This document shows, piece after piece, positions 7,242 to 26,034 of a DNA stretch of 48,692 bases; position 1 is the stretch's first letter; every line of letters begins with the position of its first letter. Both the position numbers and the translations under genes were made by a program. Source of the DNA: an uncultured Barnesiella sp. (GTDB lineage: Bacteria; Bacteroidota; Bacteroidia; Bacteroidales; Barnesiellaceae); contig CALUJQ010000022.1 of assembly GCA_944320995.1 (NCBI GenBank), forward strand, positions 1 through 48,692. Direction: 5' to 3'. Below the pieces are notes generated by a model. It was not told the origin of the DNA, ran no database searches, and was given only the letters and a program-made list of their open reading frames with translations.

Positions 7242-7317
7242 ATAGGATTGTGGCAGAGTCAAATTTGAAAATTCCGTTTTCGTTTGTCTCTGTTCACGTC
7301 TTTCGCTATATTTGTAA
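7242..7317 (+). repeat. Hairpin-promoter repeat, unit A
   Basis: The unit has a head box ATAGGATTGTGG, then a hairpin (7254-7271 with 7276-7292; paired blocks CAGAG, CAAA and GAAAA with small internal loops), then a spacer ending in the -7 box TATATTTG at 7307-7314. The -33 TTTG (7283-7286) lies inside the 3' hairpin arm, 20 bases from the -7 box. It is followed directly by unit B. Confidence 0.75.
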
Positions 7318-7320
7318 AAT

Positions 7321-7400
7321 ATAGGATATGGTTCGGCAGAGTCAAATTTGAAAACATTGTTTTCATTTGCCTCTGCTCTCGCCTCTGGCTATATTTGTGA
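7321..7400 (+). repeat. Hairpin-promoter repeat, unit B (BFN nuclease promoter)
   Basis: The head box is ATAGGATATGG. The hairpin pairs 7337-7355 with 7359-7375 (blocks CAGAG, CAAAT and GAAAAC, loop ATT). TTTG at 7366-7369 sits in the 3' arm, with TATATTTG at 7390-7397 after 20 bases. Predicted transcription starts near 7403, about 17 bases before the GTG at 7420. Units A and B start 79 bases apart. Confidence 0.78.
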
Positions 7401-7419: not shown

Positions 7420-8004
7420 GTGGAAAATCGCATAAAATTGAAGGTGTTGGGGCTGACATACAGTCAAGTGAAAAAAGGGGCTTATGCCTTGGTGCTTGCC
7501 GAAGAAGCGGGCCCTCGCCGCATACCTGTTGTTATAGGGGTCTCCGAGGCGCAATCGATTGCTATTTCTCTCGAAGGTATTATCCCGCCCCGTCCCATTA
7601 CTCATGACCTCTTTGTGAGTTTTGCGCATGGTTTCGGCATACGGTTGAGAGAGGTGTGTATCTATAAATTTGAGAATGGAGTCTTTTCGTCGGAGATGCT
7701 TTTCGACGACGGTATGCGGGAGATCCGGATCGATGCCCGCACTTCCGATGCCATAGCCATTGCTTTACGAACCCGCTCCGATATATATGTGATGCAGGAA
7801 ATTATAGAAGAGGCAGGCTTTGTCTATGAAGAGCAAAGTGAAACCGAACCTGAACCAGAGAGGGATAATGCTCAAAAGAGTTTGTCGATATGCTCTCGTA
7901 AAGAACTTCAAGAGCGGCTGGAAAAGGCCATTGCACAAGAGGCCTACGAAGAGGCGGCTCGTATACAGAATGAGTTGAATAAAAGAGCGTCCAATAACTT
8001 GTAA
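7420..8004 (+). CDS. Bifunctional nuclease (BFN/DUF151) protein with C-terminal UVR motif
   Basis: Residues about 1-130 form a BFN (DUF151) domain, a family with reported DNase/RNase activity, starting KLKVLGLTYSQ. After an acidic linker (SETEPEPERD), residues about 155-190 read as a UVR motif (RKELQERLEKAIAQEAYEEA, then ARIQNEL), the helical hairpin that links UvrB and UvrC. The UVR motif suggests protein-protein contact or a link to DNA repair; that is inference. The start is a GTG, supported by the promoter ending at 7397. The physiological role in Bacteroidetes is not established. Confidence 0.88.
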   Translation: MENRIKLKVLGLTYSQVKKGAYALVLAEEAGPRRIPVVIGVSEAQSIAISLEGIIPPRPITHDLFVSFAHGFGIRLREVCIYKFENGVFSSEMLFDDGMREIRIDARTSDAIAIALRTRSDIYVMQEIIEEAGFVYEEQSETEPEPERDNAQKSLSICSRKELQERLEKAIAQEAYEEAARIQNELNKRASNNL

Positions 8005-8095: not shown

Positions 8096-9352
8096 ATGGG
8101 AAATGTAAAGATTCGATTGATAGTAATGAATTTCCTCCAATTCTTCATTTGGGGAGCATGGCTTTGTACTTTAGGATTGTATATGACGACTCCGGTAGCC
8201 GATGGAGGATTGGCTTTTGATGGCGCCCTTGTGGGCAGTGTCTTTGCCTTGTCGGGCATTGCGTCGCTCATTATGCCGGCTCTTATCGGAGTGATAAGCG
8301 ATAAATGGGTAAATGCCGAGCGGTTGATGGGCCTTTTGCACGGTGTAGGAGCGGTTGCCCTTTTCAGCGCAGCGTTTATTTCGAATTACGATTTGTTCAA
8401 AATCGCAATGCTGATCAATATGCTGGCTTATATGCCCACGCTTTCGCTTTCTTATACCGTAGCTTATAATGCTCTCGATAAGGCCGGATTGGACCGTGTC
8501 AAGGACTATCCTCCCATTCGGGTATGGGGAACTGTCGGATTTATCGTAGCTATGTGGATCGATAACTTTACGGGATTCAGTTCCAACAACGGCCAGTTGA
8601 TTATGGCCGGTTGTGCTTCGGTGGTAATGGCATTTTACTGTTTTACCCTGCCGGCTTGTCCTCCGGCCAAGGCGATGAAGAACAGCGGTCTCATGTCTAT
8701 GTTAGGATTAGATGCATTGGTACTGTTCAAGAATTACCGTACGGCGGTATTTCTGCTCTTTTCATTCTTGCTGGGAGCGGCGCTTCAAGTGACCAATATG
8801 TATGGAGTGCCTTTCCTCGACAGTTTTAAAGAGACACATCCCGAGGCTTGGGCCGTGAAATATTCGGTTATTCTCTCTTCCCTGTCGCAGGTTTCGGAGA
8901 CGTTGTTTATTCTTGCCATACCTTTCTTTATGGGCAGATATGGTATTAAACGGGTTATGCTCATCAGTTTTTCGGCATGGGTTTTGCGATTTGGTTTCTT
9001 TGCCATAGGCGGGCCGGAAGGATTTCCAGTCGTGTTCTTTATTTTGTCGATGATAGTCTATGGTATGGCTTTCGATTTCTTTAATGTGTCGGGTTCCCTC
9101 TTTATTGCCGATGAGGCTCCCGTTTCGATTAAGGCCAGTGCACAAGGAATCTTTATGATGATGACCAACGGTTTGGGCTCTATTGTGGGCGGTTATGGCG
9201 CTGGCTGGGTGATCAAACAGCACACGGTGGATAAAGTAACCGACTGGACAGCTTGTTGGACTATATTCGCCGCCTACGCGCTGGTTATCGGTGTGTTGTT
9301 TGCCCTGACGTTCCATTACAAACATCAACGGGTAAAAACAACTAACGCTTAA
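8096..9352 (+). CDS. Nucleoside:H+ symporter, MFS superfamily
   Basis: This 418-residue inner-membrane protein has about twelve hydrophobic helices. Its N-terminus (IRLIVMNFLQFFIWGAWLCT) and the following SLIMPALIGVISDKW loop match the NupG-like nucleoside permease family. It likely imports nucleosides with protons for salvage; base specificity cannot be told. It starts a run with rsmE (15-base gap), kdsA and a TPR gene. Its link to those genes looks positional rather than functional. Confidence 0.9.
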   Translation: MGNVKIRLIVMNFLQFFIWGAWLCTLGLYMTTPVADGGLAFDGALVGSVFALSGIASLIMPALIGVISDKWVNAERLMGLLHGVGAVALFSAAFISNYDLFKIAMLINMLAYMPTLSLSYTVAYNALDKAGLDRVKDYPPIRVWGTVGFIVAMWIDNFTGFSSNNGQLIMAGCASVVMAFYCFTLPACPPAKAMKNSGLMSMLGLDALVLFKNYRTAVFLLFSFLLGAALQVTNMYGVPFLDSFKETHPEAWAVKYSVILSSLSQVSETLFILAIPFFMGRYGIKRVMLISFSAWVLRFGFFAIGGPEGFPVVFFILSMIVYGMAFDFFNVSGSLFIADEAPVSIKASAQGIFMMMTNGLGSIVGGYGAGWVIKQHTVDKVTDWTACWTIFAAYALVIGVLFALTFHYKHQRVKTTNA

Positions 9353-9367
9353 TAGTTCGAAAAGACC

Positions 9368-10084
9368 ATGCAGATCTTCTATGCCCCCGAAATAGAGACG
9401 GTTCATGAGTTGCCCGAGGCGGAAAGCCAGCATTGTGTGAAGGTGTTGCGCATGAAAGAGGGTGACGAAATTGGAATTATCGACGGTCGGGGGAGTCGAT
9501 ACAGAGCCGAGATTGTCTTGGCTCACCCGAAGCGTTGTGGCGTGAAGATTTTGGAAAGAGAGACTGCTCCCAGTTTTTGGACCGCTCAGGTTCATGTGGC
9601 GATTGCTCCCACAAAAAATCTCGATCGTATCGAATGGTTTGCCGAGAAGGTGACCGAGATAGGCATCGATTCCATCACGCTGTTGAAGTGCCGTTTTTCG
9701 GAGCGGAAGGAGTTGAAAACCGACCGGTTGGGCAAGATATTGGTCTCGGCCATGAAACAGTCGCTGAAAGCCGTATTGCCGCAGTTGTCCGAGATGGTAC
9801 CTTTTGCCGACTTTGTCTCTCGTCCTTTCAACGGGCAGAAGTTTATCGCCCATTGCTATAAGGAGGGGGAGCGGCAAGAGTTGAGCCGGTTGTATGAACC
9901 CGGACAAAATGCTTTGATATTGATAGGCCCGGAGGGCGATTTCAGTCCCGAAGAGGTAGAGATGGCGATTGCCAACGGATTCCGTCCGGTCATGTTGGGC
10001 CCAAGTCGGTTGCGTACCGAAACAGCCGGTGTCGTTGCTTGTCACACGATTCAAATATTGAACCAAATAAACGCGAAAGAATGA
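9368..10084 (+). CDS. rsmE: 16S rRNA (uracil1498-N3)-methyltransferase
   Basis: RsmE methylates U1498 of 16S rRNA using S-adenosylmethionine. The 238-residue protein has the usual N-terminal PUA-like part (ESQHCVKVLRMKEGD) and the C-terminal SPOUT knot, with the signatures LIGPEGDFSPEE and LGPSRLRTETA. The length is normal. Its stop overlaps the kdsA start in an ATGA junction, pointing to translational coupling. Confidence 0.95.
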   Translation: MQIFYAPEIETVHELPEAESQHCVKVLRMKEGDEIGIIDGRGSRYRAEIVLAHPKRCGVKILERETAPSFWTAQVHVAIAPTKNLDRIEWFAEKVTEIGIDSITLLKCRFSERKELKTDRLGKILVSAMKQSLKAVLPQLSEMVPFADFVSRPFNGQKFIAHCYKEGERQELSRLYEPGQNALILIGPEGDFSPEEVEMAIANGFRPVMLGPSRLRTETAGVVACHTIQILNQINAKE

Positions 10085-15957: not shown

Positions 15958-16622
15958 CGGGACAACAATATTTCGGCCAGAGCCAAATCGACAGGTAACG
16001 TTATTTTCAGGTTTTCGCGATTCCCCTCGACCAATCGGGGAGCGTATCCGGCGGCTTCATAGACCGATGCGTCGTCGGTAAACGACGGGTCGTAAGGTTG
16101 GGTATAGGCCTGTTTGATCTCTTCGGCGCGGAAGGTTTGCGGGGTCTGTACCGTGACAAATCGGGAGCGGTCAACCGCTTGGCTTGTCTCGTCGGGCCCG
16201 ATTTGGCGCAACGAGTCGATGAGAGGCATTGCCGGTATGGCTCCGCCATAGGCTTCGGCGGCTTGGAAACAGTGGGCAATCACCCGGTGCGATACCAGCG
16301 GGCGTACACCGTCGTGAATGGCGACCAACCCGTCGCCCGGGACGAGCGACAATCCGTTACGGACCGAGTAGAAACGGCTCTCTCCGCCGTTGGTGATCCG
16401 GTGAGGCACGGCCATGTCATGGGCTCTGCACCACTGCTGCCAGTATGCTTGTTGTTCGGCGGGAAGGACGACGACAAGTTCCATCTCGGGATCGAAGCGG
16501 TAGAAATTTTCGATTGTGTGAGCCAGTATGGGTTTCCCGTTTATCTCGATAAACTGTTTGGGAATCTCTTTGCCCATGCGGGTCCCTTTGCCTCCGGCTA
16601 CTATGATTGCATATCGTTTCAT
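15954..16622 (-). CDS. ispD: 2-C-methyl-D-erythritol 4-phosphate cytidylyltransferase
   Basis: IspD attaches CMP to methylerythritol 4-phosphate in the non-mevalonate isoprenoid pathway. The 222-residue protein opens with the nucleotide-binding loop AGGKGTRMGKEIPKQF (residues 9-24) and has the conserved HDGVRPLVS and TDDASVYE segments. The translational overlap with recG suggests co-expression, though the functions are unrelated. Confidence 0.96.
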   Translation of the reverse strand: MKRYAIIVAGGKGTRMGKEIPKQFIEINGKPILAHTIENFYRFDPEMELVVVLPAEQQAYWQQWCRAHDMAVPHRITNGGESRFYSVRNGLSLVPGDGLVAIHDGVRPLVSHRVIAHCFQAAEAYGGAIPAMPLIDSLRQIGPDETSQAVDRSRFVTVQTPQTFRAEEIKQAYTQPYDPSFTDDASVYEAAGYAPRLVEGNRENLKITLPVDLALAEILLSR

Positions 16623-16646
16623 CGTTGTCGCACGTTACTGTGAAGA

Positions 16647-16654
16647 CAAAAATA
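16647..16654 (-). promoter_or_regulatory. -7 box for ispD-recG
   Basis: TATTTTTG on the minus strand matches TAnnTTTG about 25 bases before the ispD start. No clear -33 box is seen. Confidence 0.4.
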
Positions 16655-16701
16655 ACAATTTATTTCGGTATGGAGAAATCGCTGTGCCGATATGGAGGTA
16701 T

Positions 16702-22482: not shown

Positions 22483-22565
22483 TGCAAACCGTGGTTGCGA
22501 ATCGGGGTTACTATTTATGTAGAAATGCTCCGTGACTCGATTGCAGAATAAAAATAAAAAAGATT

Positions 22566-23165
22566 ATGAAAAAGTCGATTTTTTGTGTGGCTCTCGTAGC
22601 TGCCATGTTTTTGGCTATTCCAGCCAATGCTCAATTTAAGTTTGGTCCCAAGGTAGGTATGAATATCTCTACCCTGTCGTTGGGAGGAGATTTGTCGAAG
22701 ACTTTCAAGTCGGAGAATATCACGAGTTTTACCGGCGGTTTGATGGCCGAGTTTATGGTTCCCGTGATTGGTGTAGGCCTCGATGCCAGTGTGATGTACA
22801 CACGCAAAGGCTCGACTTTGAAAGAGGTAACTACCGGGGCTTCGAAAAATCAACATACCGATTATGTGGAAATTCCTATTAATTTGAAGTATAAATTTTC
22901 TTTGCCGGTGGTAGGTTCCGTATTGGCCCCGTTTGTCTATGCCGGTCCGAGTTTCGGCTTCAAGGTGGGCGATAACTTCGAGGATCAGTATAAGGACAAA
23001 AGTTTTGAGACCGCTATCAACGTGGGTATAGGAGTCGAACTTTTCAACCATTTGCAGATTGCCGGTCAATATGGCTGGGGATTGGGAAAAACAATGGAAC
23101 TACTGAATACGGCCCTGAACGGGAAGAGCCGCGCATGGACGATTACGGCCGCTTATTTATTCTGA
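22566..23165 (+). CDS. PorT-like outer-membrane beta-barrel protein
   Basis: This 199-residue protein has a signal peptide (1-22, ending ANAQ) and begins its mature part with FKFGPKVGMNIS, the usual opening of the PorT/outer-membrane beta-barrel family. Alternating hydrophobic strands continue to a C-terminal aromatic residue (AAYLF). Such proteins sit in the outer membrane; their functions are mostly unassigned. It has its own promoter and a strong terminator, so it is probably monocistronic. Confidence 0.87.
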   Translation: MKKSIFCVALVAAMFLAIPANAQFKFGPKVGMNISTLSLGGDLSKTFKSENITSFTGGLMAEFMVPVIGVGLDASVMYTRKGSTLKEVTTGASKNQHTDYVEIPINLKYKFSLPVVGSVLAPFVYAGPSFGFKVGDNFEDQYKDKSFETAINVGIGVELFNHLQIAGQYGWGLGKTMELLNTALNGKSRAWTITAAYLF

Positions 23166-23191
23166 TCAACGGATTATATTTGCAGGATACG

Positions 23192-23227
23192 ACGGGGAGG
23201 AGAACGGGGATTCTCCTCCCCGTTTTT
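23192..23227 (+). terminator. Terminator of the barrel gene
   Basis: A perfect 13-bp GC-rich stem (23192-23204 with 23211-23223) with a 6-base loop and five Ts follows the stop at 23165. Confidence 0.9.
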
Positions 23228-23262
23228 CTCGTTTGCGAGTGCCCCGACCGGCTCGGGGGAGG

Positions 23263-23302
23263 GGATAAGACAGGATGCGGCAGGATAAGACAGGATGCGG
23301 CT
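23263..23302 (+). repeat. Tandem 20-bp duplication of the head box
   Basis: The 20-base unit GGATAAGACAGGATGCGGCA occurs twice head to tail (23263-23282 and 23283-23302, last base T in the second). It duplicates the head of the first hairpin-promoter repeat in front of priA. Confidence 0.9.
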
Positions 23303-23370
23303 CGGCATGGCCCGAATTTGAAAACTGTGTTTTCATTTGTCTCTGCACTCGCCTTTCGCTATCTTTGGAT
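23290..23370 (+). repeat. Hairpin-promoter repeat, unit 0
   Basis: Head box ACAGGATGCGGCTCGG, then a 7-bp hairpin TGAAAAC/GTTTTCA (23319-23325 with 23329-23335), then the conserved spacer CACTCGCCTTTCGC and the -7 box TATCTTTG (23360-23367). TTTG at 23336-23339 is 20 bases upstream. Confidence 0.78.
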
Positions 23371-23373
23371 AAG

Positions 23374-23442
23374 ATAGGATGCGGCTTGGTAATGTCAATC
23401 AAACAAGTTTGTTGCCATTACTCTCGCCTTTCACTATCTTTA
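23374..23442 (+). repeat. Hairpin-promoter repeat, unit 1
   Basis: Head box ATAGGATGCGGCTTGG, hairpin 23390-23404 with 23407-23420 (loop AA, 13 pairs with a mismatch and a bulge), spacer CTCTCGCCTTTCAC, then TATCTTTA at 23435-23442. The -33 position reads GTTG (23411-23414). The arms share almost no sequence with unit 0 yet still pair. Confidence 0.75.
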
Positions 23443-23448
23443 CAGAAA

Positions 23449-23520
23449 ATAGGATGCGGCTTGGCAAAAAGTTCAAGCAAGCTTGACTTTCTGCACTCGC
23501 CTTTCACTATCTTTGCTAAC
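23449..23520 (+). repeat. Hairpin-promoter repeat, unit 2 (priA promoter)
   Basis: Head box ATAGGATGCGGCTTGG, hairpin 23465-23478 with 23481-23493 (loop AA, about 12 pairs with one bulge), spacer CACTCGCCTTTCAC, -7 box TATCTTTG at 23508-23515. The -33 match is poor. The predicted start near 23521 gives a leader of about 48 bases to priA. Confidence 0.78.
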
Positions 23521-23568
23521 GATTATATTGCCGGGCTATATCCGGGGAGGAGGAATATATTTATAGTT

Positions 23569-26034
23569 ATGAACAGATTTGCCGACGTCGTATTGCCGTT
23601 GCCCCTTTATAAATACTTTACCTATCGGATACCTTCCGATGGATACGATTCCTTGTCGGTGGGTAGCCGGGTGGTGGTGCCTTTCGGCCGGAAGAAATAT
23701 TATACGGCTATTGTGGTACGGCTGCACGATGCAGAACCGCAGGGGTATGAAGTGAAGGAGATCCTTTCGTTGCTCGACAGCCGTCCCGTGTTGCGACGTC
23801 CGCAGTTGCAGTTTTGGGAGTGGATTGCCGACTATTACCTCTGCTCGGTGGGCGATGTGTACAAGGCGGCCCTACCCTCGGGACTGAAACTCGAAAGCGA
23901 GACGACGGTGACGTTGAATCCCGATTTTGAAGAGGGGGACGACGACCGTTTGAAGGAGCGGGAGTGGATGTTGCTGGCGGCATTGAGCAAGAAATCGCGC
24001 ATGACGGTGCAGGAACTCGAAAAGGAGAGCGGTATGCGCAACATCTTGCCTACGCTTCGCCTTTTGCTCGAACGGGAGGCGGTATTCGTGTCGGAACAGA
24101 TCAAGCCACATTATCGGCCCAAGACCGAGACTTATATCCGACTCACTTTTCATCAAGGCGATGAGGAGGCTTTGCATCGGGCTTTTGAGAAGGTGAAGCA
24201 GGCGAAGAAGCAGGAGGTGATGCTCCTTTCGTTCCTTGATTTATCCCTCTTTATGCAAAAAGGCAAACTGCGGGAGGTCTCCCGCAAAAGTCTGCTCGAC
24301 CGTTCGGGAGTGTCGTCGGCCGTTTTGGGGGCGATGGTCGAGAAGGGGCTGTTCGAACCGTACAAAAAAGAGATAAGCCGGTTTGACTCGGCAATATATT
24401 CGGTACGGGAAATCGCCCCGTTGAGCGAACGGCAGCAGACGGCGTACCGACAGATTTTGGACTCGTTCAAAGCGCATGCGGTAACTTTGCTGCACGGAGT
24501 GACTTCGAGCGGGAAAACCGAAATTTATACCCACTTGATACAGCGGGTGTTGAACGAAGGGAGGCAGGTCCTCTATTTGGTCCCCGAGATAGCCTTGACG
24601 ACTCAACTGACCGACCGCTTGCGGAAGATATTCGGCGAGAAACTGATGATTTATCATTCGAAATTTTCGGATAACGAGCGGGTAGAGATTTGGAACTCTT
24701 TGCTCGACGACCGTTCTCCCCGCTTGGTTTTGGGTGTACGTTCTTCCATCTTTTTGCCGTTTAGCGATTTGGGACTGGTGATTGTCGATGAGGAACACGA
24801 GACTTCCTATAAACAATACGATCCGGCGCCGCGGTATCATGCCCGTAATGCGGCGATTGTATTGGCTTCGATGCACGGGGCGAAAACCTTGTTGGGAACG
24901 GCTACGCCGGCAATCGAAACCTATTTCAACGCCAAGAGCGGGAAATATGGGCTGGTGGAGTTGAGAACCCGATTCAACGATGTGGAGTTGCCCGAGATTG
25001 TCCCCGTCGATGTACGGGAGATGCGCAGGAAGAACCGCATGCAGGGGAATTTTACGCCCGAACTGCTTAATCGCATGCAGATCGCTTTGGGGAGGGGGGA
25101 GCAGATAATCTTGTTCCAGAATCGCCGGGGATTCGCCCCTATGGTCGAGTGCAAACAGTGTGCGTGGATACCCAAGTGCGAGCATTGCGATGTGAGCCTC
25201 ACCTATCACAAGCGATACAATCAGCTGACCTGCCATTATTGCGGATTCACCTATGAAATCCCGAAAGTGTGCCCGGCGTGTGGTCAACCTACAATCGGCA
25301 TGATGGGGTTCGGGACAGAGCGCATCGAGGAGGATATTGCCCGGCATTTCCCCGGTGTGGCCGTGTCGCGCATGGATTTGGATACGACGCGTACCCGCAG
25401 TTCTTATGAGCAGATTATCGAGGAGTTCTCGCAAGGGAAAAACAAAATCCTTATCGGTACGCAGATGATTACCAAAGGCCTCGACTTCGACCGGGTGAGC
25501 GTCGTGGGCATATTGAGTGCCGACCAAATGATGAATTATCCCGATTTCAGGTCGCATGAACGGGCATTCCAGATGATGGAACAGGTCTCGGGAAGAGCGG
25601 GGCGGAAAGATAAGAAAGGGGTTGTCGTGTTGCAAACCTCCGAGCCCGGATCGTTGCTTATCCGTCAGGTGATGGCACACGATTACGAAGGTATGTACAC
25701 CACACAGTTGGCCGAGCGCAAGGCCTTTTCTTATCCACCTTACACCCGGTTGATATATATCTATTTGAAACATCGTGACGAAACGTTGTTGCAGGAGCTT
25801 GCCGTGCGTTATACCACGGCGTTGAGGAGTGTGTTCGGCCCTCGCGTGTTGGGCCCCGACAATCCGCCGGTAGCCCGCATACAATCGTTGTATATCAGGA
25901 AAGTGATGTTGAAGATAGAACTTCTGGCCTCGATGTCGAAGGTGAAGGAGATTTTGCGGCAAGTCTATGAGTCGATGTTGGGCGACGAACGGTTCAAATC
26001 CCTGCAACTCTATTATGACGTCGATCCCTTGTGA
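23569..26034 (+). CDS. priA: Primosomal replication protein N' (PriA helicase)
   Basis: PriA reloads the replisome at repaired or stalled forks. The 821-residue protein begins FADVVLPLPLYKYFTYRIP, the 3'-end-binding domain. It has Walker A GVTSSGKTE near residue 311, a DEEH box near 407, and a zinc-binding region of eight cysteines from about 528 (CKQC, CEHC, CHYC, CPAC). The helicase end includes GTQMITKGLDF and QVSGRAGR. The frame stays open upstream to 23275, but that part is repeat DNA; the ATG at 23569 gives the family N-terminus. The SGNH gene follows after 25 bases. Confidence 0.97.
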   Translation: MNRFADVVLPLPLYKYFTYRIPSDGYDSLSVGSRVVVPFGRKKYYTAIVVRLHDAEPQGYEVKEILSLLDSRPVLRRPQLQFWEWIADYYLCSVGDVYKAALPSGLKLESETTVTLNPDFEEGDDDRLKEREWMLLAALSKKSRMTVQELEKESGMRNILPTLRLLLEREAVFVSEQIKPHYRPKTETYIRLTFHQGDEEALHRAFEKVKQAKKQEVMLLSFLDLSLFMQKGKLREVSRKSLLDRSGVSSAVLGAMVEKGLFEPYKKEISRFDSAIYSVREIAPLSERQQTAYRQILDSFKAHAVTLLHGVTSSGKTEIYTHLIQRVLNEGRQVLYLVPEIALTTQLTDRLRKIFGEKLMIYHSKFSDNERVEIWNSLLDDRSPRLVLGVRSSIFLPFSDLGLVIVDEEHETSYKQYDPAPRYHARNAAIVLASMHGAKTLLGTATPAIETYFNAKSGKYGLVELRTRFNDVELPEIVPVDVREMRRKNRMQGNFTPELLNRMQIALGRGEQIILFQNRRGFAPMVECKQCAWIPKCEHCDVSLTYHKRYNQLTCHYCGFTYEIPKVCPACGQPTIGMMGFGTERIEEDIARHFPGVAVSRMDLDTTRTRSSYEQIIEEFSQGKNKILIGTQMITKGLDFDRVSVVGILSADQMMNYPDFRSHERAFQMMEQVSGRAGRKDKKGVVVLQTSEPGSLLIRQVMAHDYEGMYTTQLAERKAFSYPPYTRLIYIYLKHRDETLLQELAVRYTTALRSVFGPRVLGPDNPPVARIQSLYIRKVMLKIELLASMSKVKEILRQVYESMLGDERFKSLQLYYDVDPL

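Follow-up and report, generated by a model that had tools for sequence, protein, structure and literature searches.

The window analysed here, the whole stretch of 48,692 nucleotides from an uncultured Barnesiella sp., carries three non-coding units of about 80 bases (70-85 bp in the family) which stand head-to-tail at positions 23287-23513, upstream of priA (23569..26034, + strand; ATG at 23569; TIGR00595 at 555 bits for a cut-off of 230). Direct reading of the sequence confirmed the three tandem units with the arms given for them in a preliminary description of this DNA. Unit 0 (23287..23365, +), also read directly, belongs to the long-arm class and runs from AAGACAG to CTATCTT, with its head box at 23292-23305, TTTG at 23336-23339 and, 20 nt further, TATCTTTG at 23360-23367; no -7 box (TATNTTT) is found on its left side, and a 20-bp tandem duplication (GGATAAGACAGGATGCGGCA/T twice; 23263..23302, +) was read directly at its left end. 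Unit 1 (23371..23440, +; AAGATAG to CTATCTT) has its head box at 23376-23389, its -7 box at 23435-23442 and a 34-nt arm, TAATG..CAAAC/GTTTG..CATTA, that occurs once among 285 copies. Unit 2 (23446..23513, +; AAAATAG to CTATCTT) is of the 32-nt arm class, with its head box at 23451-23464 and the last -7 box at 23508-23515. Ahead of the array, a GC-rich hairpin with a T run (23194-23228) follows an outer-membrane beta-barrel gene and is a likely terminator; it hosts the chance Rfam match mentioned below. Two more units were detected in the window by the sequence-only model (7242..7397, +), upstream of an open reading frame starting at 7420 for which no NCBIfam match was obtained.

The layout of a unit is AAKATAG - GATGC - GGC - TCG - arm - ACTC - GCC - TTTCA - CTATMTT, and the whole of it is one imperfect palindrome with covarying stems. 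The head box and the spacer, first described as conserved flanks of a hairpin, are indeed conserved but are not mere flanks, as they pair together into an outer stem whose internal loops are conserved. In 249 of the 258 distinct copies, and with the positions of invariant right side being uninformative, outer-stem position 3 is G-C in 143, T-A in 46 and A-T in 7 (z of 12.7 over permutation), position 14 is G-C in 222, T-A in 9 and C-G in 3 (z 13.5) and position 15 is C-G in 138 and T-A in 67 (z 10.8), followed by position 7 with a z of 3.1, these permutation statistics leaving the relatedness among copies in place. The excess of paired cells amounts to 181 in register and falls under 4 in size after sliding by 1 to 3. 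Column covariation among 63 non-redundant of 97 equal-length units gave the stem pairs 3-76, 30-48 and 15-64 as the three strongest, and about nine of the top 30 column pairs are stem pairs. Covariation does not separate the long hairpin from a local dyad between neighbours (TATCTT-5 nt-AAGATA). Position 3 of unit 2 is itself an A.C mismatch. Folding energy is a poor test for a single unit, two of the three window units failing it against dinucleotide shuffles: unit 1 folds better than its shuffles (z top/bottom of -3.51/-5.34), while units 0 and 2 do not by this measure alone (-0.01/-0.27 and -0.31/-1.47).

Arms pair above the mean of their own letter shuffles in 249 of 251 cases, and own arm halves beat halves swapped between equal-length copies in 205 of 238, the reverse being seen in 32. 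The refuting condition of the preliminary description, middle segments no more complementary than shuffled sequence, is not borne out by these comparisons. The lengths of the arms, on the other hand, cluster in 285 copies at 41-44 nt (214), 32-34 nt (41) and 27 nt (15), with 15 of other lengths, and the arms are therefore modular rather than free. The arm of unit 2 has identical copies in two units on contig C9. Thus, the proposal that freely varying but complementary arms indicate selection for the fold holds for the complementarity but not for the free variation, and selection has a competitor. Quasi-palindrome correction could yield covariation without selection, and templated correction of this kind during replication might have made the arms covary with no selection on the fold. 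Such an origin, which is compatible with mobility and competes only with a functional fold, is possible though on balance unlikely. It is consistent with a symmetry that reaches the 2-nt centre and with the lack of a coding-strand bias to RNA-type wobble, but free correction should erase the loops GATGC and TTTCA, which are unpaired yet conserved in the same palindrome. These loops argue against quasi-palindrome correction as the whole story.

The units form a large family. A sequence-only model, for which 22 copies from the window's genome (2.85 Mb) were used, gave at least 71 matches at E<=0.001 in this genome among 150 scored of 1790 candidates, some of them being partial. The head box with up to one mismatch has 37 matches genome-wide compared with 0 for the reversed control, at least one of the 37 (L020) not being a unit. 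At E<=0.01, each of the nine genomes from the genus gives 50-113 matches; at the same threshold, and again with about 104 candidates scored per genome, 32 genomes of other families comprise two with 66 and 78 matches, five with one and 25 with none. A match was found in 33 of 295 genomes of a Bacteroidales sample, with four or more in 19 of these (14 candidates scored per genome), and in one of 247 genomes of a phylum-wide sample, namely the window's own (17 candidates scored per genome). Exact 21-base matches occur, among named records, in Barnesiella sp. An22, Proteiniphilum, Phocaeicola barnesiae, Mediterranea, Ca. Caccoplasma and Ca. Enterocola. Literature searches, which covered open-licence PMC papers only, gave no paper on the unit among those listed, this being weak evidence of novelty.

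The units lie nearly always just before genes. In 1.22 Mb, made up of the window and 60 stretches chosen for their units, 171 units fall into 95 clusters, 55 of which have two or more units. Genes called by codon usage place 91 of the 95 clusters facing the next gene, at a median distance of 29 nt and within 0-120 nt in 77 of the 91, the remaining ones being three opposite clusters and one at an end. Two of the three opposite clusters are directly followed by an ATG frame on the unit strand, the gene having probably been missed, and the third is the CRISPR array of sister genome G001. Calls by ORF length, which gave 80 clusters on the same strand, 11 opposite and 4 inside, had frames crossing the units and were replaced by the codon-usage calls. 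By comparison, 22 of 109 TATNTTTG that lack a unit and lie in a gap between two co-directional genes point away. The sigma promoters of Bacteroidetes follow the rule TTTG, about 20 nt and TANNTTTG before the gene. Long-arm units, with TTTG, 20 nt and TATCTTTG, carry this pattern, whereas the short-arm classes have no TTTG at 20 nt. The earlier remark that the conserved spacer goes beyond the needs of a -33/-7 promoter is borne out: across 227 TANNTTTG sites that lack a unit, information stays at or below 0.25 bit at 20 of the 24 positions preceding the box and reaches 0.34-0.52 bit at the other four, compared with more than 1 bit at 16 of 20 positions in units, where copies of one element are alike by descent.

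Filled and empty sites were found side by side in a CRISPR array of the window's genome (contig C30), in which one unit lies inside TATCTTTG in 2 of the 12 repeats with an intact left half, the other 10 being empty. The repeat resumes after the unit, and the repeat spacing is 161 nt when filled versus about 77 nt when empty. The outer end of this array carries a weaker unit, and in the array of sister G001 the first full repeat contains a unit. In these CRISPR cases, the left copy reads TATCTTT and continues with A or C instead of G. The array itself (L117, G000:C30:5162-7500, with G000:C30:540-3986) is Type II-like, and the cas9 match on the same contig has one internal TAA. Sisters G008 (L266, C40) and G001 (L202, about 9320-9450) share the same CRISPR spacer and left junction and differ in arm class, and in G008 the contig ends after roughly 270 nt without a further repeat; the arm was exchanged whole at this one fixed site.

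Two gene promoters provide comparable pairs. The ispD promoter of the window is an empty site (16622..16668, - strand, box TATTTTTG at 16647-16654) where sister G007 (L238) has one unit; the short flanks are 68% and 65% alike, and the boxes differ, being TATTTTTG in the empty and TATCTTTG in the filled site. At a gene which we take to be ruvX-like, G005 is filled and G001 empty, with flanks alike at 88% and 80% and a left box of TACCTTTG. These filled and empty sites support the mobile promoter cassette that had been one option of the preliminary description. In the CRISPR, ispD and ruvX-like cases, TANNTTT is present on both sides of the unit, which fits target duplication and a unit-borne box alike. 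More generally, 215 of 281 units have TATNTTT no further than 26 nt upstream of their head, while an exact TATNTTT is absent on the left of 54 of 131 first or solo units. The K base of a unit agrees with the M base of the upstream and right-end boxes in most units (C-G, A-T, T-A), an agreement that may reflect palindrome pairing, a copied target or base-paired target choice. A second kind of left junction, of 8-10 nt ending in CGAAKATAGG compared with the usual 4 nt, is seen at L245, L074, L258, L252 and others.

Comparison of the same genes among sister species shows gain and loss of units and changes in their number. Before priA, the three units of the window correspond to 2-4 in G001, G004, G006 and G008 and to a partial one in G007; none were found there in G003, G005, G029 and G036, and G002 gave only a 9.5-bit match. 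The 142 ortholog comparisons, in which each direction was counted and stretches chosen for carrying units were used, comprise 95 with units on both sides, in equal number in 37, and 47 with one side without units; most of these 47 are too diverged to judge, the filled and empty orthologous pairs with both short flanks clearly alike being only two. That nothing moves at all, an old tandem promoter being duplicated, shrunk and homogenised by recombination between repeats and loci, is improbable. The frequency of tandem arrays (two or more units in 55 of 95 clusters) and the arm exchange between G001 and G008 at one CRISPR site would suit such recombination, but it leaves aside the units in CRISPR repeats beside empty repeats and those at genes whose sister promoter is empty, and such arrivals exceed tandem change.

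Taken together, these results make it quite probable that the units are a mobile element which targets promoters at their TANNTTTG -7 boxes; every promoter entered is predicted to be rebuilt. Under this mobile element reading, a MITE-like unit, moved by an enzyme, would enter a -7 box and restore the box at its own right end, and a tandem array like that ahead of priA would grow as further units insert into the -7 box of one already present. The right half of the long-arm class (TTTG, 20 nt, TATCTTTG) would be a working promoter of priA, and preservation of the native start region would account for the tolerance of units. The orientation of the units, their distance to genes, the tandem arrays, the kept start region and the turnover would all be explained by a small element that inserts at -7 boxes with a box of its own. 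Several sources of the moving enzyme were considered and set aside. A REP/RAYT origin was rejected since Y1 (PF01797) occurs in 4 of 20 unit-rich versus 17 of 20 unit-free genomes and is absent from the window's genome, and an IS1595 origin with its transposase in 3 of 20 unit-rich and 5 of 20 unit-free genomes. No autonomous parent was found among the unit-bearing loci scanned for separated halves; the wide half-pairs L242 and L217 have heads which belong to complete short-arm units, and the L242 interval consists of ordinary genes.

The covarying stems raise the question of whether an RNA is formed. Transcripts from a left box could start near AAGATAG, beside the stem, and fold as a hairpin serving as leader, switch or small RNA, which would agree with the covariation; this is very improbable, and the structural switch put forward earlier is not upheld as RNA. 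G.T does not exceed A.C among single internal arm mismatches (21 versus 33, the less certain positions being opposite with 23 versus 8), nor in the outer stem (54 versus 146), where the fixed promoter side shapes the ratio. The pair beside the 2-nt centre covaries: of the 44 short arms, out of 50, that fit the pattern, 43 have a Watson-Crick pair there, of three types, and this suits DNA. Folded with DNA parameters, 237 of 258 units have a bottom strand more stable than the top one and 6 have strands of equal stability, a bias to which a pyrimidine-rich promoter strand may contribute. The Rfam search of 22500-24200 returned no family, only mir-483 outside the units (E 0.52, below the gathering score), and the downstream genes are mixed. 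The fold is most likely of importance at the level of DNA, perhaps in single-stranded form while the element moves, and not as an RNA switch. Unit-specific operators, the arms being dyads that overlap the -33 box and bind one or more dimeric regulators, are the least probable reading, for although the dyad adjoins the promoter in a single orientation, arm classes recur at unrelated genes, the downstream genes (priA, obgE, nfo, dapB and a rsmD-like gene below its cut-off) have no pathway in common, the symmetry is kept while the arm sequence changes wholly, and units are gained and lost at the same gene.

For the mobile element, a more specific and rather doubtful scheme is that the folded bottom strand is the moving form, its AAKATA end pairing with TATMTT where an open promoter is melted, and that it would write itself in at the transcription bubble, giving the gene a fresh promoter. 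The traces of such base-paired targeting would be the K-to-M base match and the better folding of the bottom strand. If the mobile reading is true, many promoters across a genus are being rewritten by a tiny mobile element that goes in at the site of transcription start and leaves this start intact, a natural case of a parasite made harmless through its choice of target and a source of promoter change between species, and which enzyme moves the unit becomes a clear question. The same reading would also warn against taking covariation in a hairpin ahead of a gene as a sign of RNA.

Among known systems, REP elements are short extragenic palindromes in many copies which are moved by RAYT (Y1) transposases; their likeness to the unit is in the way of working only, and Y1 is absent from 16 of 20 unit-rich genomes. 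Integron attC sites have variable arms, conserved ends and a bottom strand that folds better, all features of the unit, again as a working likeness only, but the unit has no gene cassette and its core sequence differs. The invertible promoters of Bacteroidales, the same order, lie on a repeat-bounded piece, whereas the unit inserts and does not invert, no reversed unit being found among the 95 clusters facing a gene. At 70-85 bp, non-coding and with at least 71 matches in the window's genome, the unit falls within the size and copy range of MITEs, defined in PMC4596501 as short (50-1000 bp), non-coding and in many copies; its ends AAKATAG and CTATMTT pair and covary, and the right end doubles as -7 box and may belong to the target. 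The Correia elements of Neisseria (NEMIS/CREE) are described in PMC10969869 as short non-coding palindromic elements of 204 bp with terminal inverted repeats, in more than 120 copies per genome, mostly immediately upstream of genes, where they carry sigma-70-like promoters; the units here are about 80 bp, with the -7 box as site, exchangeable arms and tandem arrays. BrickBuilt of Porphyromonas gingivalis, also of the Bacteroidales, is an intergenic MITE-like repeat with promoter activity that differs in its 23-nt repeats, IS-like terminal repeats, bidirectional promoters and a sequence unlike the unit, and the corresponding passages of PMC4596501 report no -7 box targeting. The unit works most like such promoter-bearing MITEs, and is set apart from their descriptions by entry at the -7 box, exchangeable arms and tandem growth.
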